This document shows, piece by piece, positions 37,423 through 50,867 of a DNA stretch of 64,000 nucleotides. The notes beneath the pieces are model-generated. The model did not search any database and was not told the DNA's origin. It saw only the letters and a list, made by a program, of their open reading frames with translations. Made by a program: the position numbers and the translations under genes. Every line of letters starts with the position of its first letter. Positions within the stretch are counted from its first letter, which is position 1. Origin of the DNA: Haladaptatus paucihalophilus DX253. Lineage in GTDB: Archaea > Halobacteriota > Halobacteria > Halobacteriales > Haladaptataceae. The stretch is taken from NCBI RefSeq assembly GCF_000376445.1, contig NZ_AQXI01000001.1, positions 776,962 through 840,961 of the forward strand. Reading direction: 5' to 3'.

Positions 37423-38922
37423 TCACTCCGGGAGTTCGCCGACGAATTCGTACTCTCGGGGTCGCTTGTACTCCTCGAGCGCGTCGCTCCGGACGCAGTG
37501 GTCGTCGAGGTCGGCCGCCGTGAGGTCGCCGTCCGCGACGATGAACGCCTTCGGCACCTCCCCCCACTCGTCGTCGTCGATACCGACGACGGCGGTTTCC
37601 TCGACGTTTGGATGCTCCGCGAGCACCGCCTCGACGTTCTCCGGGTAGATGTTCTCCCCGACGTATTTTATCAGGTCGCGTAGCCTGCCGGTCATGGCGA
37701 AACAGCCGTCCTCGGTCTCGATGCAGGCGTCGCCGGTGAAGTACCAGTCGCCTTCGAACGCGTCTTCGGCACTCTCGTAGTCGTGCAGGTAGCCCTCGAA
37801 CGCTCCGGGACAGTCGCGGTGGACGATGAGTTCTCCCTCGCGTTCCGCCTCGACCGTCGCCGTCGGGTCGTGTTCGTCGATTTCGACGATTCGCATCCCG
37901 TCCACCCCCGCGTACCCGAACGTCCGCGGGTCGTCCCGGTGTCGGAGATTCACTTTCGTGTATGGCGGGAATATCTCCGTCATCCCGTACGTGTTGTAGA
38001 TGTAGTCGGGGTCGATGACGCGCTTGGTCGCGTCGAGCAGGTCCTCGCTCATCGGCGCTCCGGAGAAGCTGATTATTTCCACGGAATCGAACACGTCGCG
38101 GTCCCCGTCGGTGTCGTCCCCGTCCTCCGACCCGAGCAACCGCTCGTACATCACGGGCGCTTCGTGGAGGACGGTGACGTTCTCCTCCGCGATTATCCGT
38201 CGATACTGCTCCCGGTCGAATTCGGGCACCGGAATGTACGTGCCGCCCGTCAGTACCGTGGACAGCAACATCCCGTGAACGCCGAGTGTGTGAAAGAGGT
38301 GAATCCTACCGAGGACGGTCTCCCCGTCGTACATCCGCTGACTGTGGACGTTCAGAAAGACCCTCTCGACGCCGCCTCGGTGCGTAATCTCGATTCCCTT
38401 CGGGTCTCCGGTCGTCCCGGAACTGTACTGGATGACACTGCCGTCGTCCGGCAGTATCGACACCGAAACCCGCTCGTCAACGTCACGGACCAATCGTTCG
38501 TAGCCGTTCACGTCGGGAGCGGAGACGTCGGCGGTCGTGACGAACGTCTCGCAGTCCAGTTCGTCCCGGAGGTCGAGCACCTGCTCCGCGATTGGCCCAC
38601 CGAACACCAACATCGACAGGTCGGCGTCCGAAACGAAGTATCGCAACGTCTCGTCGCTGCTGTGGAAGTTGAAGGGGACGGCGACGGCACCGACTCGCTG
38701 CACCGCGAGGAACAAAAAGACGTGTTTCGGCGTATTCGGGAGGGCGAGCCCGATTCTCTCCCCCTTCTCGATGTCGAACGCTCGAAACCCGGCGGCGAGC
38801 CGTTCGACCCGCTCGTCCACGTCGGCGTAGGTGAACCGTCGGTCGGTTATCGGGTCGACGACGGCGGTTCGGTTGGGCGTCCGCTTCACCGTGTTTCGAA
38901 ACAGCTCACTAACGTTCCACAT
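37423..38922 (-). CDS. AMP-dependent acyl/aryl ligase lacking its C-terminal lysine segment
   Basis: A 499-aa adenylate-forming enzyme (ANL family). The P-loop motif is IQYSSGTTGDPKGIE; YNTYGMTEIFPP and GDACIETEDGCF are further core motifs, with RLRDLIKYVGENIYPENVE the hinge. The C-terminal domain stops at EFVGELPE, just before the usual segment with Gly-Lys, whose lysine positions the carboxylate during adenylation. No lysine follows in the stop-bounded frame. Thioester formation alone may remain. It may activate an aromatic or fatty acid for the cluster; substrate unknown. AT-rich sequence upstream holds its promoter. Confidence 0.85.
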   Translation of the reverse strand: MWNVSELFRNTVKRTPNRTAVVDPITDRRFTYADVDERVERLAAGFRAFDIEKGERIGLALPNTPKHVFLFLAVQRVGAVAVPFNFHSSDETLRYFVSDADLSMLVFGGPIAEQVLDLRDELDCETFVTTADVSAPDVNGYERLVRDVDERVSVSILPDDGSVIQYSSGTTGDPKGIEITHRGGVERVFLNVHSQRMYDGETVLGRIHLFHTLGVHGMLLSTVLTGGTYIPVPEFDREQYRRIIAEENVTVLHEAPVMYERLLGSEDGDDTDGDRDVFDSVEIISFSGAPMSEDLLDATKRVIDPDYIYNTYGMTEIFPPYTKVNLRHRDDPRTFGYAGVDGMRIVEIDEHDPTATVEAEREGELIVHRDCPGAFEGYLHDYESAEDAFEGDWYFTGDACIETEDGCFAMTGRLRDLIKYVGENIYPENVEAVLAEHPNVEETAVVGIDDDEWGEVPKAFIVADGDLTAADLDDHCVRSDALEEYKRPREYEFVGELPE

Positions 38923-38995
38923 CGTTTTAGTTGATATAAATTATAATATAAAATCTCTACGACGCTCATGTATTCGTCGTGAGTCCGCACGCGGT

Positions 38996-40456
38996 TCACT
39001 TCGTGACTTCCGAAACGGCCGCCTCGATGTCCTCCAGACAGTCGGCGACGTTCTCCCGATGGACTCGGAACGAGAGCACGCAGATGCGGACGGCGAAACG
39101 GCCGTCGAGCGTCGTTCCCGAGAGGTGAACGCGGCCGCGGGCGTTGACCTCCTCCAACACCCGTTCGTTGAGTTCGTCGAGCGCGTCGCCCTCGACGCCC
39201 GACGGTTCGACCCGGAACGCGAGCGTGGACAGTTGGGGTTCCGCGACTATCTCGACGGGTTCGAGGTCGCGGAGGCAGTCGGTGGCCCGTTCCGCGAGTT
39301 CCATTTTTTCCGCTAGCGCGGCGCGGAAAGGGTCGACGCCGTGCAGTTTCAACGGCAGCCAGACGCGAAGACCGCGGAAGTCCCTCGATAGCTCCGGTCC
39401 CAGTTGGCTGAAGTCCACCGTCCCGGAGTCGGGGTCCCAGTCGGGGATGTAGTCCGCCTCCACGGCGTGTGCGCGGGCCAACGCCCCACCGTCCCGCATC
39501 AGGAGCGCGCCGGTCCCGTACGGGAGGAAGAGACCTTTGTGCGGGTCGACGGTGATGGAGTCACAGCGGTCCAATCCGGCGAGTTGCGTTTTCCCCGTCT
39601 CGGTCAGGGCGAAGAATCCGCCGTAGGCTCCATCGGCGTGGAGCCAGAGGGATTCTCGCTCGCAAAGGTCGGCGAGCGCATCGAGGTCGTCCACCGCGCC
39701 CGTGTTCGTCGTCCCCGCGTTTCCGACGACGAGGAACGGCTCCTTTCCGGCGGCTCGGTCCGCCTCGACCGCCGATTCGAGGGCGTCCACGTCGATGCGG
39801 AACTCGTCGCCCGTCGGAATCGAACGGATGTTCTCCGACGGGAAACCGGCGAGGACCGCGGCCTTCGTCACCGAGTGGTGCGACTGGTCGCTGGTGTATA
39901 TCACGCCGTCGAGGAAGTCCTCCGAGAGGCGTTCACGCCTGGCGGTTATCGTGGCTATCAGGTTCGCCATCGACCCGCCGGACGTGAGCAGGCCGAAGGA
40001 GCCGTCGGGGTAGCCCATCATTTCGCAGAACCACTCGACGACGTTCGTTTCGATGGCGACGAGCGCCGGGGCGGCGAACCACGTCCCGACGTATCGGTTG
40101 GTCGCGTCGGCGATGAAGTCGGCGAGCGCGGCGTGAAAGAGGCCGCCTCCCGCGGTGTACGCCATGTATCCCGGGTGGGAGTTGGTGATGGAGTGGACGA
40201 TGGCGTCCTCGAACAGCGTATCGAGGAGTTCGTCGTACGGCATCGACTCCTCGGGGAGCGGTTCGCGCAGTTCGTCCGCCCTCTCGTGTGCACCGTCGAC
40301 GTTGGACGCGGGTCCGTCAGGCAACCGGTCGAGATGGTCCAGCACGCGGGCTTCAGTCTCTCGAACCATCTCCTCTTTTTCCGTACGGGTGAGTTCCAGC
40401 GGTCGGTCTCCGAACGAACGGTCGTCTCCGTCCGACGGGAGAGTAGAATCGGCCAT
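38996..40456 (-). CDS. PLP-dependent amino-acid decarboxylase (group II)
   Basis: A 486-aa fold-type I enzyme of the aromatic-L-amino-acid / diaminobutyrate decarboxylase group. Motifs: HSITNSHPGYMAYT near residue 95, SGGSMANLIA (PLP phosphate), HADGAYGGF, and VDPHKGLFLPYGTG with the Schiff-base Lys. It should convert an amino acid to an amine. Substrate could be an aromatic amino acid or a diamino acid; the sequence alone cannot decide. A group II decarboxylase beside an N-hydroxylase is known from haloarchaeal siderophore genes. The ATG at 40456 is chosen; the upstream extension is untranslated AT-rich DNA. Confidence 0.9.
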   Translation of the reverse strand: MADSTLPSDGDDRSFGDRPLELTRTEKEEMVRETEARVLDHLDRLPDGPASNVDGAHERADELREPLPEESMPYDELLDTLFEDAIVHSITNSHPGYMAYTAGGGLFHAALADFIADATNRYVGTWFAAPALVAIETNVVEWFCEMMGYPDGSFGLLTSGGSMANLIATITARRERLSEDFLDGVIYTSDQSHHSVTKAAVLAGFPSENIRSIPTGDEFRIDVDALESAVEADRAAGKEPFLVVGNAGTTNTGAVDDLDALADLCERESLWLHADGAYGGFFALTETGKTQLAGLDRCDSITVDPHKGLFLPYGTGALLMRDGGALARAHAVEADYIPDWDPDSGTVDFSQLGPELSRDFRGLRVWLPLKLHGVDPFRAALAEKMELAERATDCLRDLEPVEIVAEPQLSTLAFRVEPSGVEGDALDELNERVLEEVNARGRVHLSGTTLDGRFAVRICVLSFRVHRENVADCLEDIEAAVSEVTK

Positions 40457-40620
40457 TATATCATACACCCATTTGAAAATTAAAAGTGTTTGCGTACGGA
40501 TTCGATTCCATCGGGGCGTACCCACCGGAGCGACTGGGAGTATATCACAATAAATGCGCTTTTCTCAACGTAATATTAAAACAATTAAAAATATACGTGT
40601 AGCGTCGGTAGCGAAAATAT
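40457..40620. promoter_or_regulatory. AT-rich divergent promoter region
   Basis: The decarboxylase and DUF4268 genes diverge from this 164-base spacer, far more AT-rich than the coding DNA. The 16-bp word AATATTAAAACAATTA (40572-40587) ends 33 bases before the DUF4268 ATG and recurs exactly upstream of the chorismate-aminating gene at 45902-45917, hinting at shared control. Confidence 0.5.
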
Positions 40621-41532
40621 ATGACTGACACCGGCACAACAGGTCCCGATGGTGCCGCCTCTCACGACAGCACCGAAACTTCGTCCCTCATCGAAGCGGT
40701 ACGCTCCGACGGGGCGGCCGGGTTCGACCGCGAACTCGGGTTCTATTTCGACACCGTTTCGGCCACGGTGGACGACGCGCTGTCCTTCGACGCCATCGCA
40801 ACGACGACGGCCAATCGAACCGTCGCCATCGAGGCGGTCGGTGACGAGCAGCGATGGGACCGGACGCTGGCGTCCGCGTCGAAGCTCGACCCGGACTTCC
40901 TCGTGTTGGTCGGAGCGGCGTTCGACGACGACCACGTGGCGCTACTTCGGTGGCTGAACGAAGCCACGCACGCCGACCTGTTCGCCGTGTCGTTCGACGC
41001 GTCCGAAGGCGACGACGCCGACCGCGGTTCGGCGGGTCAGCCCGACGTGCTCGTCGAACCGTCGGGGTGGTCCACCCGGTCGGAACGGAGCCTCACGGAA
41101 AAGCAACTACTCCAACTCCGCTACTGGGCCGAACTCCGCGACCGAATCGAAGGGCGAACGACCCGTCTGGAGTCGTGCGAGCCACAACCGAACAACTGGT
41201 ACAACAACTCGATGAGCGAAATCGGGTACAAGCTTCAGTTCGCCATCAACAGCTACACGTCCGTTCTGTTGACCCAACTCGTGGTTCGTGACGATCCGGA
41301 CGGGTTTCAGGCGCTCGCGGACGACCGTGATGCCATCGAACGCGATATCGGGGAGGACCTCATCTGGCTGTCGCCGGACGAGGCGAAGGGCGAGGGCAAC
41401 CGTGCGCGGATAACCCTCCGACGCGACGGCGACCTGTTCGCGGAGGGGTCGTGGTCCGAGTATCAAACGTGGATGCTGGACGCGGGCGAGCGGTTCTACG
41501 ACGTGTTTCACGAGCGCATCCGGGGATTGTAG
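40621..41532 (+). CDS. DUF4268 domain protein
   Basis: A 303-aa protein with a DUF4268 domain in its C-terminal half, seen in QPNNWYNNSMSEIGYKLQFA, the EEDL-type IGEDLIWLSPDEAKGEGNR and FYDVFHERIRGL. The N-terminal half (residues 25-150) has an alpha/beta pattern reminiscent of nuclease-like domains (FDAIATTTANRTVAIE, FLVLVGAAFDDDHVALL) but I see no catalytic motif. DUF4268 proteins are often in mobile or defence settings. It may have no direct role in the biosynthetic cluster. The next gene lies 56 bases downstream on the same strand. Confidence 0.75.
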   Translation: MTDTGTTGPDGAASHDSTETSSLIEAVRSDGAAGFDRELGFYFDTVSATVDDALSFDAIATTTANRTVAIEAVGDEQRWDRTLASASKLDPDFLVLVGAAFDDDHVALLRWLNEATHADLFAVSFDASEGDDADRGSAGQPDVLVEPSGWSTRSERSLTEKQLLQLRYWAELRDRIEGRTTRLESCEPQPNNWYNNSMSEIGYKLQFAINSYTSVLLTQLVVRDDPDGFQALADDRDAIERDIGEDLIWLSPDEAKGEGNRARITLRRDGDLFAEGSWSEYQTWMLDAGERFYDVFHERIRGL

Positions 41533-41588
41533 GATTTTTATGGTCGCTTCACCCGACGAATTCGATTCGGAACGGAGCCGACGATAGC

Positions 41589-42482
41589 ATGTCCGACGAC
41601 CTTCCGACGCCGTTCCACATCGTCGACGTGTTTTCGCGGGGGCGCTACACCGGAAATCAACTCGCGGTCGTCCGGCACGCCGACCGGCTATCACCCGACG
41701 AGATGCAACGCATCGCGCGGGAGATCGACTACTCCGAAACGGCGTTCGTGACCGACGACTCGCCGACCGGTGACGGATACGGCGTTCGCATGTTCACACC
41801 CGAAGCCGAAGTGCCGTTCGCCGGTCACGCGACGCTCGGGACGGCGGCGGTGATTCGAGACGTTATCGCCGACGGCGACCCGGATGCGGTCACGCTCTCC
41901 CTGCCGGACGGTCCCGTCACCGTGACGACCGACCGCGACGGCGACGGGACGGTCTTCTGGCTCGAACCGCGGAGGGTATCGTTCCGCGACACCCTCGACC
42001 CGGGAATCGCCGCCGACGTGGTAGGTGTCGCCCACGACGATATCGCGCCGTCCCTTCCCTGCCAGGTCGTTTCCACCGGGCTACCGCAGTTACTGCTCCC
42101 GCTCCGGAGCCTCGACACCGTACGTCGTGCGGCCACGAACCGGGAACCGTACTACGAGCACGTGGTCGAGAGACTCGGTGTCAACGCAGTGTTGGTGTTC
42201 GCCACGGAGACGTGCGACCCCGAAAACGACCTGCACGTTCGCGTGTTCGTGGAGTCCCAAGGCATCCCGGAGGACCCGGCGACCGGATCGGCGAACACGA
42301 GCCTCGCGGGGTACTGCTTACGTGAACGGGCGTCGTGCGCCGCGGTTCGGTTCACGGCCGAGCAAGGGTACGAGATGGACCGCCCATCGACGCTGTACCT
42401 CCGCGCCGAGCGGACGGACGACGGTATCGTCTCCCGGGTCGGCGGACGGGTTTCGAACGTCGCCGACGGTCGGTTGCTGTAG
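41589..42482 (+). CDS. PhzF-like isomerase/epimerase
   Basis: A 297-aa PhzF family protein. Key residues are present: the catalytic Glu in DYSETAFV, His in FAGHATLG and Asp in IPEDPATGSAN. PhzF isomerises 2,3-dihydro-3-hydroxyanthranilate in phenazine synthesis; other members act on different substrates, so the name is structural. Its presence beside chorismate-aminating genes makes a related aromatic or cyclohexadiene substrate plausible. The ATG at 41589 is preferred to upstream in-frame starts overlapping the DUF4268 gene. Confidence 0.9.
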   Translation: MSDDLPTPFHIVDVFSRGRYTGNQLAVVRHADRLSPDEMQRIAREIDYSETAFVTDDSPTGDGYGVRMFTPEAEVPFAGHATLGTAAVIRDVIADGDPDAVTLSLPDGPVTVTTDRDGDGTVFWLEPRRVSFRDTLDPGIAADVVGVAHDDIAPSLPCQVVSTGLPQLLLPLRSLDTVRRAATNREPYYEHVVERLGVNAVLVFATETCDPENDLHVRVFVESQGIPEDPATGSANTSLAGYCLRERASCAAVRFTAEQGYEMDRPSTLYLRAERTDDGIVSRVGGRVSNVADGRLL

Positions 42483-42530
42483 CGCTCCATCCCCCGACTC
42501 GTCGATGCTCCGCGGTGAACCCGACGTCGC

Positions 42531-43601
42531 TCAGAATCCGAGGAGCGACTCGGGATTGTCGTGGATTATCTTCCGTTTCTGCACGTCGGTGAGACCGTCG
42601 TGTTCGAGCACCGAGGACGGCGCGTCGAAGTCCATGTGGGGATAGTCCGTGGTCAGGATGAGTTGGTCCTCTAATCCGTTCATGTCGATGATGTACTGGA
42701 GGTCGTCGGGCTTTCTCGGCTGCTCTTCGAGCGGCTGAACGCCGTAGTAGAAGTCGCTCAGATATTCGCTCGGGAGTTTTGTGAGTTCCGGTGCGTCCGA
42801 GGGCCGCTCCAGATACTCTCGGTCCATGCGCGTCCGGAGGAACTGAATCCACGAGATACCCGCCTCCAAGAAGCACCAATCGACGTCGTACCGTTCCGGG
42901 ATGCCCCGCGAGATGATGCTCGTCGCGTGCCACATCTTCGCTATCGGATGGGCGAGCGTGTGATACCCCATGAACGTCTCCATGTTCAGCCCCGGCATCG
43001 GGAACGCCGGGTACAACCCGCTCCCGCTGTGGAGGTAGATCGCCAAATCGTGCTTCTCCGCCGCTTCGTATATCGGTTCGAACCGCTTGTGACCGAGAGG
43101 ATGTTTCGGTCCGACATCGACGATGAACAGCCCGACGATGCCCGGGTCACTCCCGTACTCCTCTATCACCTTGGCGCTCTCCTCGGGATGTTCCGGGATT
43201 ATCAGGAGTTTCGCGTAGTTGTCCTCCTGTGGGTCGGCGTACAGCCTGGTGATGTGCTCGTTGATGGCCCACAGATACTGGATGCGCTTCGGGACGTTCG
43301 GAATCTGCGTCAGTTTGAACTGTCCCGGCGAGAAGACGGTGACGTCGATTCCGAACTCCTCGCGCTTTTCGTCGTAGTCGTCGGGATGCGTTATCGGATG
43401 CGGCGACCACTTGATTCGTCCTCCGGCGGAACGGTCCCACCCGTCCCACGGCATCGGCCCCATCTCGGGATGAGCCATGTACCCTGACTCCTCCCGCTCC
43501 CTGAGGTCCTCGTCCAAGTACTCGAAGAGGTGGTTGTACCTCGTTAGCGAATGCACCTCCATGTCGTACACGGTAACATCGTCTACGTCATAACTGGCCA
43601 T
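42531..43601 (-). CDS. Amidohydrolase-family decarboxylase (ACMSD/LigW-like)
   Basis: A 356-aa amidohydrolase of the ACMSD clade. The first metal motif reads YDMEVHSL, that is Glu-x-His instead of His-x-His; the third ligand His lies in YLHSGSGLYP and the Asp in LTTDYPHMDF. Glu-x-His with His and Asp is the ligand set of the Mn-dependent non-oxidative decarboxylases 5-carboxyvanillate decarboxylase (LigW) and gamma-resorcylate decarboxylase, so decarboxylation of a hydroxyaryl acid is likely. The substrate is not defined. A start at 43601 fits the N-terminus of relatives. Confidence 0.85.
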   Translation of the reverse strand: MASYDVDDVTVYDMEVHSLTRYNHLFEYLDEDLREREESGYMAHPEMGPMPWDGWDRSAGGRIKWSPHPITHPDDYDEKREEFGIDVTVFSPGQFKLTQIPNVPKRIQYLWAINEHITRLYADPQEDNYAKLLIIPEHPEESAKVIEEYGSDPGIVGLFIVDVGPKHPLGHKRFEPIYEAAEKHDLAIYLHSGSGLYPAFPMPGLNMETFMGYHTLAHPIAKMWHATSIISRGIPERYDVDWCFLEAGISWIQFLRTRMDREYLERPSDAPELTKLPSEYLSDFYYGVQPLEEQPRKPDDLQYIIDMNGLEDQLILTTDYPHMDFDAPSSVLEHDGLTDVQKRKIIHDNPESLLGF

Positions 43602-43875
43602 GATATCTACACCTTAGGAACAAAACCAATAGTTCTTTTGATAAATAAATATTGAATAGAATATTAAATTATATTATGCAAAAAAGAAATAAAAACCCCC
43701 GCCGATACTCTGTTCGAAGCGTGCGAAGTCACGTCGGGGGCGTTTCGGCCGGAGACACTGCTGCGAGCCGACGCGGTTCGTGGGACTCGACCGCGCGTTT
43801 CCATCGTCACTTTGTTCTCTTAACTATTTCTTATTCATTCGTAATTTTTTTGTGCTAGTTGCGGGAGAGATTTGT
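43602..43875. other. AT-rich divergent spacer with no gene
   Basis: This 274-base spacer separates the divergent decarboxylase-like and Rieske genes. It carries AT tracts (43630-43690 and 43815-43850) suited to promoters; a 68-codon frame at 43652-43858 has no features and is ignored. Confidence 0.6.
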
Positions 43876-44187
43876 ATGGTCGAGCCAGCAGTCGAAGTGG
43901 GAGGACGCGCCGAATTTCCCGAGGGAGAGGGAACGATGGTCGAATTCGACGGGCGCGAAATCGCTGTTTTCCGGTCGGGCGACGAATTTTACGCCGTCGA
44001 GAACAAGTGTCCCCACCAAGGCGGGCCGCTGAGCGACGGGAAGGTCGAGGAAACGTCCGTGTTCTGTCCGTGGCACGGGTTCGAATTCGACCTCACGACG
44101 GGCGAACACTCTCATTTGGGTGACCTATGCGTCGAAACCTACGCCGCATTCGTCGAAGACGGGACGGTGTACCTCTCGAAGGAGTAG
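43876..44187 (+). CDS. Rieske [2Fe-2S] ferredoxin
   Basis: A 103-aa stand-alone Rieske protein. The cluster ligands are CPHQGG (Cys-x-His) and CPWHGFEFDL (Cys-x-x-His) with 17 residues between. It resembles electron-transfer ferredoxins of aromatic-ring oxygenases (BphF/NirD-like), yet no oxygenase terminal component lies in the window. The ATG at 43876 is chosen; a longer in-frame start crosses an AT-rich hydrophobic stretch that resembles promoter DNA. Confidence 0.9.
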   Translation: MVEPAVEVGGRAEFPEGEGTMVEFDGREIAVFRSGDEFYAVENKCPHQGGPLSDGKVEETSVFCPWHGFEFDLTTGEHSHLGDLCVETYAAFVEDGTVYLSKE

Positions 44188-44246
44188 TGCGACTCAGTTC
44201 GGGTTCAAAACGAAAACGAACTGTCGGCCGTCTTCGACCGTTCGTC

Positions 44247-44681
44247 CTATTCGGGTTCCACGAGTTCCATGACGTTGCCGTCGGGGTCGTAGAAGTAGGC
44301 CACCCTCGATTGGACGGTGCCGACCGATTCGGGTTCGCCGAGGAACTCGACTCCCTTCTCGCGGAACTCCTCGTACTTCGCGTCGATATCGTCGACTTGC
44401 CAGCAGAAGTGGTCGTCGCCGACGTCGTGTGGCCCTCGCATCGCGTTGATGTTCTTGTTCGCGGGGGCGTCGAGGCACTTCATCTCGAATTTGATTCCGT
44501 TTCCTTCCATGACGGCGAACTCGCCGCTCGCCCCCTCGACGCCGAGGAGGTCCTCGTGATGCTCGCTCAGTTCCTTTTTCTCACGGAGCAGTTCGAGTCC
44601 CAGTACGTCGCGGTAAAATTCGATCGACCGGTCGAGGTCGGACACGTTTACGCCGTAATGGTGCGCTGGTCCTACAACCAT
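44247..44681 (-). CDS. VOC (glyoxalase/dioxygenase) superfamily enzyme
   Basis: A 144-aa metalloenzyme of two beta-alpha-beta-beta-beta units: HHYGVNVSDLDRSIEFYRDVLG starts the first (in part), with DDHFCWQVDDIDAK and DGNVMELVEPE in the second. Metal ligands expected at the first His, Glu (KFEMK), His (DDHF) and Glu (MELVE) are all present. The closest annotated relatives are glyoxalase, extradiol dioxygenase and methylmalonyl-CoA epimerase; the reaction is unknown. ATG at 44681 is preferred over a GTG at 44702. Confidence 0.85.
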   Translation of the reverse strand: MVVGPAHHYGVNVSDLDRSIEFYRDVLGLELLREKKELSEHHEDLLGVEGASGEFAVMEGNGIKFEMKCLDAPANKNINAMRGPHDVGDDHFCWQVDDIDAKYEEFREKGVEFLGEPESVGTVQSRVAYFYDPDGNVMELVEPE

Positions 44682-44788
44682 GGTTGAAATATCTACTAAC
44701 ACTGTTTAAATTATTTTATTAATTTCTGTTTTGAACATGTAGAATAATTCTACGACGGATGGGACAGCGGAGTTCGTGTCGGCATCGC

Positions 44789-45655
44789 TTACGAATCGTC
44801 GTACTCCGACTCCACGCGGGCGTCGAACGCGTCCCGTATCGTTCGGGTCAACTCGCTGGTGTCGAACCGTCGGTCCCCGACGCGGGTGACCGGCCGCACT
44901 TCCCACGTGGTGTTCGTCACGAACGCGTCGTCCGCACGGTAGAGGTCGTCCGGGCGATACGTGTCTCTCTCCACCGCGATATCGCGTTCCCTCGCCAGTT
45001 CGAGCACGACGTCCCGAGTGATTCCCGGAAGCACCGGCCCGTCGAGGGAGGGCGTCTTGAGAACCCCGTCGTCACAGAAAAAGAGGTTGCTGGTCGCCCC
45101 TTCGGTGAGGTTTCCGTCCACGTCGAGCATGAGTGTCTCGTCCGCCTCTGACTCGCTTCGAGCCATGATTCCGTTGAGATAGTTGTGCGTCTTGGCGGCC
45201 GCCGGGACCGCCGAATCCGGGATTCGAACGGTATCGACGATTTCGACTTCGGCGGGAGAATCCCAGACGGGCGACCCTCCGACCCCGCTCCGGGGGAGTT
45301 CCGAAACGAGAATCACGAGCGTCGGGGACGGGTCGGTCGGCGGGGCGAGTTTCCCCGAATGCTCCCCTCGCGTGACGGTAAGCCGGATGTACGCCTCCGA
45401 AAATCCGTTGGCTCGCAGCGTCTTCCGAACGTGGTCCAGCAACTCTCCCCGTTCGTATCCGTGGTCGAAGTTCAGGAGGTCACAGGTTCGCTGGAGGCGG
45501 TCGTAGTGTCGGTCCCACTCGAACGGAGCGCCGTCGTACGACCGAAGCGTCTCGAAGGCGGCGTCCCCGTACTTGAACCCCCTGTCCGTGACGGACACGG
45601 TCGCCTCGGATGCCGGAACGAGTTCCCCGTCGACGCAGTACTGCAATTCACTCAT
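44789..45655 (-). CDS. Class IV PLP aminotransferase / aminodeoxychorismate lyase-like
   Basis: A 288-aa fold-type IV enzyme. VTDRGFKYGDAAFETLRSY is the N-terminal class IV motif, Lys in KTHNYLNGIM binds PLP and EGATSNLFF with LPGITRD complete the site. It could be a 4-amino-4-deoxychorismate lyase (PabC), a branched-chain or D-amino-acid aminotransferase. Location between a VOC gene and a chorismate amidotransferase pair favours a role on an aminated chorismate product. It is divergent from that pair across 324 AT-rich bases. Confidence 0.85.
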   Translation of the reverse strand: MSELQYCVDGELVPASEATVSVTDRGFKYGDAAFETLRSYDGAPFEWDRHYDRLQRTCDLLNFDHGYERGELLDHVRKTLRANGFSEAYIRLTVTRGEHSGKLAPPTDPSPTLVILVSELPRSGVGGSPVWDSPAEVEIVDTVRIPDSAVPAAAKTHNYLNGIMARSESEADETLMLDVDGNLTEGATSNLFFCDDGVLKTPSLDGPVLPGITRDVVLELARERDIAVERDTYRPDDLYRADDAFVTNTTWEVRPVTRVGDRRFDTSELTRTIRDAFDARVESEYDDS

Positions 45656-45979
45656 GGATAGATTTTCGATGGTACGGAACTACGTTCCGCAGTGTGATCG
45701 ACCGGTTCCGAAACGATGGGTGTGTTTCGCCCGAAAGCGGTGTGTTGACGATTCACTCTCACAGCCGAAGAAACTTACCGGTTCCTCTTATATTTTTTCA
45801 CTATATATTTCCCGAACTAAACTTCAGAATATATAATCCATTCTCCACAGAGATATTAATATACAGATTAATACAGAGAATATATTTGGGTATTAAAACA
45901 AAATATTAAAACAATTATGGTTTACAGTTCCAGAAAGATAGTTAATGAACGACACAGCGTTCATTGGTGCAATTACTAA
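45656..45979. promoter_or_regulatory. AT-rich divergent promoter region
   Basis: These 324 bases between divergent genes are AT-rich and gene-free. The word AATATTAAAACAATTA at 45902-45917 repeats exactly the one at 40572-40587. Another AT block at 45789-45870 contains degenerate copies of CAGAGATATTAATATAC and CAGATTAATACAGAG-like words. Several TATA candidates are present. Confidence 0.5.
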
Positions 45980-47464
45980 ATGGTCGATGAAATATCTGTA
46001 ATTACCCGGAAGGACGAGTTCGAATCGGTCGCGAGCGGCTTGGAGGGAGACGCTCGAATCCCGGTCGAAGTGCGAATAACCGTCGACGACCCCTACACCG
46101 CGTACCGAAAGGCGCGGTTCGATTCGGAGGGTGCCTATCTGGAGACCACCGGCGGTCAGGACGGATGGGGATATTTCGGTATCGAACCGGCCTACTGGCT
46201 CACGAAATCCGACGACGAACCGGACAGCTTCGAGCGACTGGAGGAGTTGTTGAACGGAGAGCGATTGGTCCGCGGCGACTGCGACGTCCCGTATCCGTGT
46301 GGCGCGTTCGGGTGGCTGTCGTACGACATCGCACGGGAGTTGGAGGATCTCCCGGACACCACGGACGACGACAGGTCGCTCCCCCGCCTCCAGTTCGGCG
46401 TGTACGATTTGGTTTCCGCGTGGAAAGAGCCGCGGGATGGCGACGGGACGGAACTTCGAATCACGTGCTGTCCGCGGGTCGCCCCCGACGACGATTTCGC
46501 GTCGGTGTACGCCGACGCCCGAAGCCGACTCGAAGCGCACGTGGGGCGGATTCGAGACGGCGACCCGTCGGTCGAGCACCCGCCCGTCGATGGACCGATA
46601 TCGTTCCGAAACGAGGTCGGGCAGGAAGAGTACAGCGACCGGATTCGGACCGTGAAACGGTACATTCGAGACGGAGACACCTTCCAAGCGAACATCTCCC
46701 AGCGGCTCTCCGCACCCGCCGCGGTCCATCCCACGGACGTCTTCGGCGCGCTCAGGGAAGTGAATCCCGCACCGTACTCCGGAATTTTGGAATTCCCCGG
46801 TGTCGATCTGGTCAGCACGAGTCCGGAGTTGCTCTTGGATTGTGAGGGTCGTCGTCTCGTCACGGAACCCATCGCGGGAACGCGACCGCGCGGGGAAACG
46901 ACGGAGGAGGACGAGGAACTCGAATCGGACCTGCTAGCGAACGAGAAGGAACACGCGGAACACACCATGCTCGTCGACCTCGAGCGAAACGACCTCGGGA
47001 AAGTCGCCGAGTACGGGAGCGTGGAGGTGACGGATTTCAGGCGCATCGACCGCTATTCGGAAGTAATGCACACGGTGTCGGTGGTCGAGGGAGTCCGGCG
47101 AGACGACCAATCGATTCCCGACTCCATCGCCGCCGTCTTCCCCGGCGGGACCATCACGGGCGCACCGAAGCCGCGAACGATGGAGATCATCGACGAGGTG
47201 GAGTTCACCCGCCGCGGACCGTACACCGGCGCTATCGGCGTGCTCGGGTTCGACGACCGAGCGACGCTGAACATGACGATTCGGACGCTCGTTCGGACGT
47301 CGGGGCGGTACTACCTCCGCGTCGGGGCGGGTATCGTTCACGATTCGGAGCCGGTCGCGGAGTTTTACGAGACGCTCGACAAGGGACGCGCGCTCATCAA
47401 CGCCGTCAGCGACGCGCTCGACGACGACGCGGACCTCGAACTCGAAGTGGGTGACGCCCGATGA
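45980..47464 (+). CDS. Anthranilate/aminodeoxychorismate synthase component I
   Basis: A 494-aa chorismate-binding enzyme (TrpE/PabB family). The active-site segment is TEPIAGTRPRG; Ala replaces the Lys of PIKGT that forms a covalent intermediate in classical PabB, so the chemistry predicted is anthranilate or 2-amino-2-deoxyisochorismate formation rather than 4-aminodeoxychorismate. NEKEHAEHTMLVDLERNDLG and VFPGGTITGAPKPRTMEII are other core motifs. It overlaps component II by four bases. It is probably a specialised copy beside the primary trpEG or pab genes. Confidence 0.9.
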   Translation: MVDEISVITRKDEFESVASGLEGDARIPVEVRITVDDPYTAYRKARFDSEGAYLETTGGQDGWGYFGIEPAYWLTKSDDEPDSFERLEELLNGERLVRGDCDVPYPCGAFGWLSYDIARELEDLPDTTDDDRSLPRLQFGVYDLVSAWKEPRDGDGTELRITCCPRVAPDDDFASVYADARSRLEAHVGRIRDGDPSVEHPPVDGPISFRNEVGQEEYSDRIRTVKRYIRDGDTFQANISQRLSAPAAVHPTDVFGALREVNPAPYSGILEFPGVDLVSTSPELLLDCEGRRLVTEPIAGTRPRGETTEEDEELESDLLANEKEHAEHTMLVDLERNDLGKVAEYGSVEVTDFRRIDRYSEVMHTVSVVEGVRRDDQSIPDSIAAVFPGGTITGAPKPRTMEIIDEVEFTRRGPYTGAIGVLGFDDRATLNMTIRTLVRTSGRYYLRVGAGIVHDSEPVAEFYETLDKGRALINAVSDALDDDADLELEVGDAR

Positions 47465-48057
47465 TTCTGGTGATAGACAACTACGACTCGTTCGCGTACA
47501 ACCTCGTGCAGTACATCGGCGAGTTCGCCGAAGAAATCGTCGTCCGCAGGAACGACGCGATAACCATCGATGAAATCCGCGAACTCGACCCCGACGGAAT
47601 CGTCGTGTCCCCGGGTCCCGGAACGCCGCAAGAAGCGGGCGTTTCCATCCCGATCTTCGAGGAGACGCGGATACCGGCACTCGGCGTCTGTCTGGGCCAT
47701 CAGGCGCTGTGTGCGGCGGAGGGGGCGACGGTCGGACACGCCCCGGAAGTCGTGCACGGCAAATCGTCGGAGATCAACCACGACGGAAAGGGAATCTACG
47801 AGGGCGTGCCGAGTCCCTTCCGTGTCGGTCGATATCACTCCCTCGCGGTCCAGAGCGGGACGCTCCCGGATTCGCTCCGGGTGACGGGAAACACCAAGGG
47901 AGACGAAGACGAGCGCGTCGTGATGAGCGTCCGCCACGAGTCGAAACCCCACATCGGAATCCAGTACCATCCCGAGAGCGTTCTGACCCCGCCGGGGAAG
48001 CGACTGATACGAACGTTCTGTCGAAAGTGTCGGACGGATTCCTTCCCCGACGTGTAG
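47461..48057 (+). CDS. Class I glutamine amidotransferase, component II
   Basis: A 198-aa glutaminase (TrpG/PabA family) supplying ammonia to component I. The catalytic triad is GVCLGHQALC (Cys) and IQYHPESVLTP (His, Glu). The start overlaps the stop of component I (ATGA), which gives equal synthesis. The C-terminus has an added basic tail with a Cys pair (FCRKCRT). Substrate specificity is set by component I. Confidence 0.95.
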   Translation: MILVIDNYDSFAYNLVQYIGEFAEEIVVRRNDAITIDEIRELDPDGIVVSPGPGTPQEAGVSIPIFEETRIPALGVCLGHQALCAAEGATVGHAPEVVHGKSSEINHDGKGIYEGVPSPFRVGRYHSLAVQSGTLPDSLRVTGNTKGDEDERVVMSVRHESKPHIGIQYHPESVLTPPGKRLIRTFCRKCRTDSFPDV

Positions 48058-48207
48058 GGCGGAAGCGGTTTCCGCGAGAACCGTTCGAAGGCGACCGGCA
48101 GAAGTCCGCCGGAAGCGAACGGCCATCCGTCGCGTCCACGAACGGCCGGAAACCGACAGGGCAACGCCAACCGAGTTCCGAGAAGACGAATTCATGAACG
48201 ACGAACA

Positions 48208-49401
48208 ATGAAGCTAGTGGTGAAATTCGGCGGGACGAGCCTCGCTAATCGACGTCGCATCGACCGGGCTACGAAGACGGTCGCCGGATTGGTCGAAGCG
48301 GGACACGAGGTCGTCGTCGTCGCGAGCGCGATGGGGAACACGACAGACGAACTCCTGAACGGCTTGCCCCCCGACTCGTCGAACCTCGACCGCGCCGAGG
48401 TCGTCAGCATGGGGGAGCGGACTAGCGTTCGGATGCTCAAATCGCACCTCACAGCGGCGGGCGTGGACGCCACGTTCGTCGAACCGGGGGACGACGACTG
48501 GCCGATATTCGTCCGTCCGGACGACGGGGACGGCATCGACATCGAACGAACGAAACGAGGCGTAGAACGGCTCCCCGAACGGGTGGACGGGTGCGTCCCG
48601 GTCGTGACGGGATTTCTCGCGGAGGACGACGAGGGGAACGTTCGGACGCTGAACAGGGGCGGAAGCGATACGACCGCGACGTTGCTCGGCAACGTCATGA
48701 ACGCGGACAAAGTCGTCCTCGTCACCGACGTTCGCGGGATACGCACCGGCGATCCGAAGGCCGTTGACGGGACGAAACGGATCGACGAAATCTCGGTCGG
48801 AGAGGTCCGAGATTTGGCCACCTGCAGTGCGGAGGTCGTCGCACCGGCAGCCCTCGAATACAAGACCGAGACGACCGAGCTCAGCGTCGTCCATTACGAA
48901 CACGACGACGTACTCGCCGACGGAACCGACATCTACGGCGAGTTCGAGACCGTGTTGAACGTCCGCGATGTGCCGTTCGCCGGAATCACCGTATCCAGGA
49001 CCGTTTCGCGGTCGGGGTCGCGGGTCGACGGACCGCTCGTCGAAACGCTCTCGACGGCCGGAATCGCGGTCAAAAATGCGTTCGCGGATATGGATTCGGT
49101 CACGTGCTACGTTCGTCGGGACGACCTGCACGATGCGGTCGAGTCCGTCCACCGTCTCGTGACGGAACACGACGGCCTTTCGAGCGTTTCGACGAGGGAG
49201 ACCGTCGCGGCCGTTCACGTCGTCGATGGCGAACGCGGAGCTGCGTTCGACACCGTTCGGCGGGTTGCGACATCGCTGTTGGATTCGTCCATCGAGATAT
49301 TCGACGCCGAAATCGGGACGACTTCGATGACGGTGTATCTGGACTGGGACGACCGTCACCACGTCGAGGACCTGCTCCAAAGCGCGAGAACGCGTGGATG
49401 A
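48208..49401 (+). CDS. Aspartate kinase
   Basis: A 397-aa amino-acid kinase. The signature VVKFGGTSLANRRRI is the phosphate-binding motif and NRGGSDTTATLLG binds aspartate; two ACT domains are seen after about residue 270. It phosphorylates aspartate to aspartyl phosphate, the entry to homoserine, lysine and 2,4-diaminobutyrate. Inside this cluster it may raise precursor supply. It follows the amidotransferase with a 150-base gap and precedes the N-hydroxylase. I cannot say whether it is feedback sensitive. Confidence 0.9.
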   Translation: MKLVVKFGGTSLANRRRIDRATKTVAGLVEAGHEVVVVASAMGNTTDELLNGLPPDSSNLDRAEVVSMGERTSVRMLKSHLTAAGVDATFVEPGDDDWPIFVRPDDGDGIDIERTKRGVERLPERVDGCVPVVTGFLAEDDEGNVRTLNRGGSDTTATLLGNVMNADKVVLVTDVRGIRTGDPKAVDGTKRIDEISVGEVRDLATCSAEVVAPAALEYKTETTELSVVHYEHDDVLADGTDIYGEFETVLNVRDVPFAGITVSRTVSRSGSRVDGPLVETLSTAGIAVKNAFADMDSVTCYVRRDDLHDAVESVHRLVTEHDGLSSVSTRETVAAVHVVDGERGAAFDTVRRVATSLLDSSIEIFDAEIGTTSMTVYLDWDDRHHVEDLLQSARTRG

Positions 49402-49482
49402 ACGACGTTCGCGTAGAGAGGTCGAGCGCCGACGACCGCCATCATTTTTCCCACCAATTATATCTTTTTAAAAAACCATTGA

Positions 49483-49515
49483 TTTTATATCTTGCTAATT
49501 ATTTATATTAGCCAA
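49483..49515 (+). promoter_or_regulatory. Promoter and inverted repeat in front of the N-hydroxylase
   Basis: TTTTATAT at 49483-49490 is a good TATA box for a leaderless start at 49515. Between them TTGCTAAT (49492-49499), a 7-base AT spacer and ATTAGCCAA (49507-49515) form an inverted repeat touching the start codon. Half-sites with TTAGCC/GGCTAA resemble DtxR/IdeR-type iron-repressor boxes. Assignment is inference. Confidence 0.45.
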
Positions 49516-50867
49516 TGGCTGCCGATAGTTTCGACGTTATCGGGGTTGGAATCGGGCCGCTCAACCTCAGTCTCGCTGCCCTCATCGACGACGCCGGTCG
49601 ACGTCTGAAAACGCGTTTCTTGGAGCGGGATACGGAGTTCGATTGGCATCGGGACATGCTCATCCCGGGAACGGACCTGCAGAACTCCTTTACCGGGGAT
49701 TTGGTCAGTCCGGTGGACCCGACGAGCCAATACAGCTTTTTGAACTATCTGAAGACGAAGGACCGGTATTGGGAGTTCTTCAACTACGAGCAGTTCAACA
49801 TCCCCCGAAAGGAGTACAACGAGTACTGTCGCTGGGTGTCGGAGCGGCTCGAAAACTGTCGTTTCGACCGGGAAGTCACTACCGTTTCCGAGGGTGACGA
49901 CGGCGCGTTCATCGTTCGGGCGAGAAACCCGGAGACGGGAGAACGACACGAGTACCGCGCCGACAACATCGTCCTCGGCGTCGGTTCCCGCCCGTACGTT
50001 CCCGACGAACTCTCCGGGAAACTCGGCGAAGACGTGTTTCACTCCTCGCAGTTCCTCTCGCGGCGGGCGGACTGTCTCGAAGCCGACTCCATCACCGTCG
50101 TCGGGTCCGGCCAGAGTTCGGCCGAGATCTTCCTGAGTCTGTTGCGCGCACAGGAGGAACACGGCTACCGACTCGATTGGCTGACGCGTTCGGACGGGTT
50201 CTATCCGGTGGACCCGTCGAAGCTCACCCGCGAACTTCGAACGCCCGACTACATGGACTACTTCTACGACCTCCCCCGAGAGGTGAGCGACGGGCGGGTT
50301 GCCCAACAGGACCTGTTGTACAAGGGAATCTCCCCGGGTACCAGCGCCGCAATCTTCGATACGCTCTACCGCCGTTCGATACGGAACGACGTCGATGTCG
50401 GCATGCTATCGAAGACGGCGGTACAGAGCATCGAGTCGCAGTCCAAGGGTCGGTATCGTCTTCGATGTCACCAGTGGGAGGAAGATCGCCTGTTCCGACA
50501 CGACAGCGAAGTCGTGATTCTAGCGACCGGCTACCATCGTCCGGTCCCTTCCTTCCTCGAACCCGTCGAGGACGCGTTGGTGGACGCGGACGGGCGGTTC
50601 TCCATCGACCGCGATTTCGAAGTCGAGACGAACGGGCTGGCGGGCCGACTGTTCGTCCAGAACGATGGGATGGACGCCCACGGGTTCAACGTCGCCGACC
50701 TGTCGCTCTGTTCGCATCGAAACGCGGTCATCATCAACAGCATCGTCGGGGAAGAAGTATACTCGGTCGAGAACGGCTCGCGCTTCCAGAGCTTCGGAGT
50801 GGAGCAGTTCGTCGAGGAGTCGCCGAACAGCGAACTGATAGAGAAAGTGGCGTTTTCGACCGACTGA
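49515..50867 (+). CDS. SidA/IucD/PvdA-type flavin N-hydroxylase
   Basis: A 450-aa FAD- and NADPH-dependent amine N-hydroxylase, as for lysine N6- or ornithine N5-hydroxylation in hydroxamate siderophores. The FAD motif is GVGIGPLNLSLAAL, the substrate loop includes DWHRDMLIPGTDLQNSF, the NADPH motif is VVGSGQSSAEIFLSL and the family motif ILATGYH follows. Specificity for lysine, ornithine, diaminopropane or an aryl amine is not clear. No IucA/IucC-type synthetase is visible in the window. Confidence 0.9.
   Translation: MAADSFDVIGVGIGPLNLSLAALIDDAGRRLKTRFLERDTEFDWHRDMLIPGTDLQNSFTGDLVSPVDPTSQYSFLNYLKTKDRYWEFFNYEQFNIPRKEYNEYCRWVSERLENCRFDREVTTVSEGDDGAFIVRARNPETGERHEYRADNIVLGVGSRPYVPDELSGKLGEDVFHSSQFLSRRADCLEADSITVVGSGQSSAEIFLSLLRAQEEHGYRLDWLTRSDGFYPVDPSKLTRELRTPDYMDYFYDLPREVSDGRVAQQDLLYKGISPGTSAAIFDTLYRRSIRNDVDVGMLSKTAVQSIESQSKGRYRLRCHQWEEDRLFRHDSEVVILATGYHRPVPSFLEPVEDALVDADGRFSIDRDFEVETNGLAGRLFVQNDGMDAHGFNVADLSLCSHRNAVIINSIVGEEVYSVENGSRFQSFGVEQFVEESPNSELIEKVAFSTD

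Follow-up and report, generated by a model that had tools for sequence, protein, structure and literature searches.

A clade of haloarchaeal adenylate-forming ligases without a normal A10 segment

We analysed a ligase gene in a 64,000-nucleotide stretch (the window) of the 4.32-Mb genome of Haladaptatus paucihalophilus DX253. The gene (37423-38922, minus strand) encodes a 499-residue adenylate-forming (ANL) ligase that stops directly ahead of the NPSGK segment, motif A10. This motif's lysine is reported to be highly conserved among acyl- and aryl-CoA ligases as a whole and to be subject to control by acetylation (PMC8388817). We are highly confident of four findings taken together: A10 is absent, its absence is shared with the closest relatives, it has a single origin, and the genes are under purifying selection. 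More tentatively, we read the protein as a selected, non-decayed enzyme of a haloarchaeal clade resembling aryl-acid ligases, one that may adenylate its substrate slowly without the lysine.

Both domains of an ANL acyl- or aryl-CoA ligase were found. The AMP-binding N-domain (PF00501) scored 224.6 bits over profile positions 1-384 of 384, and the C-domain (PF13193) scored 62.6 bits, against a cut-off of 24.5, over positions 2-70 of 76. As the second match ends at position 70, the final C-domain positions are missing from the protein. The phosphate-binding loop (P-loop) A3 (SSGTTGDPKG), A5 (YGMTE), A7 (TGD) and A8 (TGRLRDLIKYVGENIYP) are present; the A10 lysine is not. The solved relatives by sequence were FadD13, 4-chlorobenzoate:CoA ligase and 4-coumarate:CoA ligase. 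The C-terminus reads YKRPREYEFVGELPE, the last two codons (Pro498 and Glu499) and the stop occupying 37423..37431 on the minus strand (TGA at 37425-37423), and the protein ends at LPE where relatives continue after LP with RN[PA]SGKI. The nearest relatives outside its own group (41-44% identity) read LPRN[PA]SGKI in nine of nine cases, and the expected segment therefore counts as absent. An earlier sequence-only reading of this DNA had held that the ligase ends before its catalytic lysine and that the family normally continues with Asn/Thr-x-x-Gly-Lys, and both statements were borne out, with the P-loop, A5, A7 and A8 intact.

The same reading had seen a possible remnant of the lost tail in another frame behind the stop. 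The out-of-frame peptide VTTGFHDLRVRKRR is indeed present 3' of the ligase stop, but it showed no detectable kinship to an A10 tail: when the final 100 residues of four of the nine canonical relatives were searched against the window with tblastn, the matches stopped at LP, and none was found downstream in other frames at E ≤ 0.05. Translation past the TGA gives RPGFTTSAFANDDPCRTRQGVSSRP, without G-K. A separately encoded A10 piece, an other-frame tail and stop read-through were sought, and none was found. A single structure prediction covering the window protein and five distant relatives was poor (mean predicted local distance difference test, pLDDT, 54.1; predicted template modelling score, pTM, 0.54), and its result was not used.

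We then asked how widely the missing segment is shared. The search base was a sample of the order, 392 genomes taken from a larger group; ligase matches at E ≤ 1e-100 were found in 11 of them, including the host genome, and these overlap with an earlier set of 59 relatives. Whole-family searches (28 genomes of the host's own family, 146 of that of genome G300 and 125 of that of genome G193) yielded no further ligase match, and a related-locus search of genome contigs gave only relatives of 24-26% identity and one short match of 45%. The normal A10 segment was missing from five of five genes in a small clade sample spanning three genomes: the window ligase, two genes in Halorussus caseinilyticus (G018; 68 and 65% identity) and two in G300 (55% each). 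The four other members end in LPNSGSKI (L009, which retains a lysine one place off), LPENIDGIQNSGAVR, IPNSAPI and VPDSGLL, and NxxGK occurs in none. In a 24-row tree with the A10 columns left in, the five A10-less proteins formed a single group with 100/100 support.

None of the five clade genes contains an internal stop. The ratio of nonsynonymous to synonymous substitution rates (dN/dS, NG86) was computed for six of the ten clade pairs and lay at 0.19-0.34, or at 0.09-0.29 for the C-domain alone, compared with 0.09-0.12 for three control pairs of A10-bearing relatives. The shared lack of a normal A10, the 100/100 grouping and these ratios indicate that the loss of A10 is old and common to the clade, which is under purifying selection, though weaker than in the A10-bearing relatives. 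A single loss of A10 preceded the divergence of the clade members, which otherwise retain the ANL fold. Because the closest relatives also lack the normal segment, its absence looks like an inherited trait of a working enzyme and not a broken gene. The window ligase displays none of the marks of decay, namely loss of constraint, frame damage and intact close orthologues. The suggestion that its 3' end had decayed and should be resequenced was accordingly not upheld, given four homologues in two other genomes without a normal A10, the fully supported clade and purifying selection. Fully active orthologues ending at the same point were what the sequence-only reading had named as refuting it; such orthologues do exist as far as the end point is concerned, with different short tails.

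The core motifs are retained across the clade. In the P-loop, SSGTTG occurs in five of five members and PKG in four of five, and A5 (YGM[TS]E), A7 ([TS]GD) and A8 (TGR) are kept throughout. Within A8, position 419 is Lys in all five clade members versus Ile in all nine relatives, and the following residue is Tyr or Phe in the clade versus Ser in the nine. By comparison with luciferase, Lys419 would occupy the K443 position. Luciferase K443 is reported to serve the second half-reaction and K529, in A10, adenylation (PMC8631863). In 4-coumarate ligase, the mutations K441A and K526A lowered activity and did not abolish it (PMC5239791); these residues would correspond to the same two positions as the A8 and A10 lysines. 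Lys at the 419 position was also found in five distant Bacteroidota relatives with an intact A10. Judged by these sequences, a lysine here is neither rare nor special to A10-less enzymes.

The host genome contains 16 C-domains above the PF13193 cut-off, of which 12 carry [ST]GK, one carries a shifted SGPSK and three lack the lysine. The ligase with the shifted segment (SGPSKIDR; L080, C3:98356-98571) retains its lysine. The three without it are the window ligase, MenE (SGT) and a 462-residue ligase paralogue (L078:4218-5606, minus strand; C1:1777265) with Glu in its place (SGELDR).

MenE served as a control. The host gene (L079:4266-5729, minus strand; C1:2910268-2911728) scored 346.5 bits against the NCBI MenE cut-off of 330.15, and it lies next to menA, which is above its cut-off, and a menC-like gene, which is below. 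Among solved proteins, 2-succinylbenzoate-CoA ligases match it best, and their A10 lysine aligns to Thr in the host protein; in Bacillus subtilis MenE this lysine is K471, which touches the alpha-phosphate (PMC11619455). MenE homologues at E ≤ 1e-90 were present in 50 of 59 genomes. Thr occupied the A10 lysine position in 51 of 51 haloarchaeal MenE genes, i.e. all 50 and that of G300 (L079, L093-L122, L130-L149 and L160). When 12 genomes were searched with the MenE model, the top match in each was the Thr gene, above cut-off in eight. Menaquinone is reported to occur in haloarchaea, and MenE is assigned in Haloferax volcanii as HVO_1375 (PMC8305020). The earlier reading's expectation that an enzyme without this lysine would lose most adenylation is reasonable in view of mutants of other ligases, but with Thr in every haloarchaeal MenE read, loss of the lysine alone is not proof of lost function. 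If haloarchaeal MenE makes the adenylate, the lysine is dispensable in haloarchaeal cells.

Under lysine-independent adenylation, the window ligase would activate a chorismate-derived aromatic acid, perhaps aminobenzoate-like, in a low-flux biosynthetic pathway. The P-loop is known to bind ATP phosphates (PMC8388817), and the intact loop of the window ligase would bind ATP. Acyl-AMP would form slowly without the A10 lysine, as presumably in haloarchaeal MenE with its Thr. A swing of the C-domain would then allow transfer of the acyl group, either to CoA or to an amine that the pathway produces. The clade-wide Lys419 of A8 may assist in phosphate binding.

The strongest alternative, a serious one although we hold it short of an even chance, is a non-adenylating ligase. 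Like PtmA2, or the 'Acceptor' luciferase mutated at K529, such an enzyme would perform only the second half-reaction, in which acyl-AMP supplied by another enzyme is converted to a thioester or amide. A natural split of the half-reactions is on record for PtmA1 and PtmA2, according to a review passage (PMC6594144). Several observations fit this alternative or otherwise weigh against slow adenylation. Residues in the A10 column vary (stop, S then K, A, P, L) as if unselected, and the freely drifting tails also fit an enzyme with no need to adenylate. Lys419, at a position linked to the second half-reaction, is fixed in the clade, in contrast to Ile in the nine relatives. In L020, a clade member, the P-loop lysine is gone (KPSG, with PSG for PKG). 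Clade dN/dS values exceed those of the A10-bearing relatives two- to threefold, a sign of weaker constraint. Adenylation by haloarchaeal MenE is itself presumed from the role of the enzyme in menaquinone synthesis.

A half-reaction enzyme would need a source of acyl-AMP, and a second ANL protein does lie near a ligase in both H. caseinilyticus and G300. This open frame of 404-407 residues (P0002; L036:20389-21612, plus strand, in H. caseinilyticus, and G300:C7:55807-57012, minus strand, in L039) has a whole AMP-binding domain and no C-domain; the two copies are 64% identical and lie ~4 and 8 kb from a ligase. Eleven other homologues were found at E ≤ 1e-60 in the 392 genomes, and all ten that were fetched have a C-domain with the A10 lysine, so that the C-domain is missing just in the two genomes with two A10-less ligases each. 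As an adenylate supplier, however, P0002 was weakened as a candidate: it also lacks the A10 lysine, and the host genome has no close relative of it (best match 31%). Neither the 64-kb window nor the neighbourhoods L127, L128, L036, L029-L033 and L039 yielded a C-domain that bears A10. As to the earlier proposal that the cluster may supply adenylate in another way, the window has no other such ligase and the other two genomes have only the C-domain-less protein nearby.

Three points count against the half-reaction alternative: apart from the change in L020 the P-loop is intact, the neighbourhoods searched revealed no partner with A10, and the MenE result hints that losing the lysine is tolerated in the order; the lysine at 419 in Bacteroidota enzymes with an intact A10 also speaks against it. 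On these sequence comparisons, lysine-independent adenylation appears slightly favoured over a PtmA2-like half-reaction enzyme. A pseudoenzyme or binding protein that holds acyl-AMP, acyl-CoA or a partner without catalysis would agree with the loss of A10 and the weaker constraint, but it is improbable, as A3, A5, A7 and A8 are retained clade-wide and constraint on the C-domain roughly equals that on the N-domain. Still less probable is that a shifted lysine does the work of A10 in part of the clade, leaving the window copy alone impaired: L009 and another host ligase (SGPSKI) have such lysines, but four of the five clade members, the window ligase included, have none. Recent decay or a sequencing error confined to the 3' end of the window gene, whose tail is the shortest of the five, is hardly credible when homologues in two other genomes lack a normal A10 and no tail remnant was found in other frames.

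The genes around the window ligase form a set of 12 consecutive genes (37423-50867). In coordinate order, the ligase is followed by a pyridoxal-phosphate-dependent (group II) decarboxylase (38996..40525, minus), with copies of 78 and 77% near the ligase on a plasmid and the chromosome of H. caseinilyticus. Next come a DUF4268 protein (40621..41532, plus; 70% copy near the ligase on Halorussus plasmid unnamed2) and a PhzF-family isomerase (41451..42482, plus; 69% copy on the same plasmid), whose called start overlaps the DUF4268 frame. An Amidohydrolase_2 protein (42531..43601, minus) and a Rieske ferredoxin-like protein (43780..44187, plus) have copies of 72 and 58%, respectively, on Halorussus plasmid unnamed3. 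They are followed by a VOC/glyoxalase-fold protein (44247..44702, minus; 82% in Halorussus, 78% in G300) and a class IV aminotransferase or aminodeoxychorismate-lyase-like protein (44789..45655, minus; 78% in Halorussus and 65% in G300, where it adjoins a ligase copy). A PabB/TrpE-like chorismate enzyme (45980..47464, plus; 76 and 71%) and a PabA/TrpG-like glutamine amidotransferase (47461..48057, plus; 84 and 76%) also recur in Halorussus and G300. The aspartate-kinase-like gene (48208..49401, plus), alone among the 12, matches nothing in the H. caseinilyticus and G300 neighbourhoods. The last gene encodes a member of the lysine/ornithine N-monooxygenase family (49515..50867, plus), its best NCBIfam match, TIGR04439, being below cut-off.

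In H. caseinilyticus, 11 of the 12 genes recur at 58-84% identity. Plasmid unnamed2 holds the ligase, decarboxylase, DUF4268 and PhzF genes; plasmid unnamed3 holds the amidohydrolase, Rieske, VOC, aminotransferase, PabB, PabA and N-monooxygenase genes; and a second ligase-decarboxylase pair lies on the chromosome. A single G300 contig holds counterparts of six of the 12, with two ligases and two N-monooxygenases. This contig (C7, L030-L033) carries what appears to be a large biosynthetic cluster: besides the two N-monooxygenases and the two A10-less ligases, it includes carbamoyltransferase, asparagine synthase, LuxC/aldehyde-dehydrogenase-like and ABC transporter genes.

Presence of an N-monooxygenase alone was rejected as a pathway marker, as 87 of the 392 genomes have one at E ≤ 1e-100. 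Among the matches listed, the closest homologues of the window enzyme (66, 59 and 58%) all occur in H. caseinilyticus and G300, where the other A10-less ligases lie, and the rest are at most 56% identical; the A10-less ligases go together only with this close subfamily. PabB, PabA and the aminotransferase point to an acid derived from aminochorismate, and the decarboxylase and N-monooxygenase point to an amine; the matches for PabB and the aminotransferase fall below equivalog cut-offs. The set apparently encodes a conserved pathway of biosynthesis from chorismate that includes a decarboxylase and an N-monooxygenase. Two A10-bearing relatives outside the clade sit among cupin, flavin-adenine-dinucleotide (FAD)-monooxygenase and fumarylacetoacetate-hydrolase genes, a setting like that of aromatic-acid breakdown and consistent with descent from aromatic-acid ligases.

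It is conceivable, though we regard it as doubtful, that some adenylate-forming enzymes of haloarchaea carry out the first half-reaction in the absence of the A10 lysine, its charge being substituted by a bound cation in the very salty cytoplasm or by another side chain. If so, MenE across the order (Thr) and the window clade (segment lost) would be two independent cases, and the lysine-free enzymes would escape acetylation control at this site. A natural A10-less clade and an order-wide replacement in MenE make the need for the lysine in adenylation testable with natural enzymes and close A10-bearing controls. Literature searches, covering titles, abstract openings and a few passages, returned no title dealing with haloarchaeal ligases that lack A10 or with a MenE carrying Thr for Lys, and no study of the haloarchaeal biosynthetic pathway that the conserved gene set marks.

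Compared with known systems, the window ligase resembles 4-chlorobenzoate, 4-coumarate and benzoate:CoA ligases in both Pfam domains and core motifs A3-A9, and 4-chlorobenzoate ligase chains align to its residues 2-498. Unlike these aryl-CoA ligases, it has no A10, and its A8 has Lys-Tyr/Phe where the nearest A10-bearing relatives have Ile-Ser. With PtmA2 of platensimycin biosynthesis, as described in the review passage (PMC6594144), it shares an ANL fold encoded in a biosynthetic cluster and the possibility of doing without adenylation; PtmA2, however, has an adenylating partner, PtmA1, whereas none was found in the searched neighbourhoods of window-type ligases. Firefly luciferase K529 mutants ('Acceptor', used in the FlimPIA assay) likewise lack the A10 lysine and keep the A8 lysine at the K443 position, but they are engineered, and oxidation replaces acyl transfer (PMC8631863). 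In haloarchaeal MenE the A10 lysine is also gone from a conserved haloarchaeal ligase; there, the segment itself is kept, as PRTxSGTxxR in most, with Thr for Lys, whereas the window ligase ends ahead of it.
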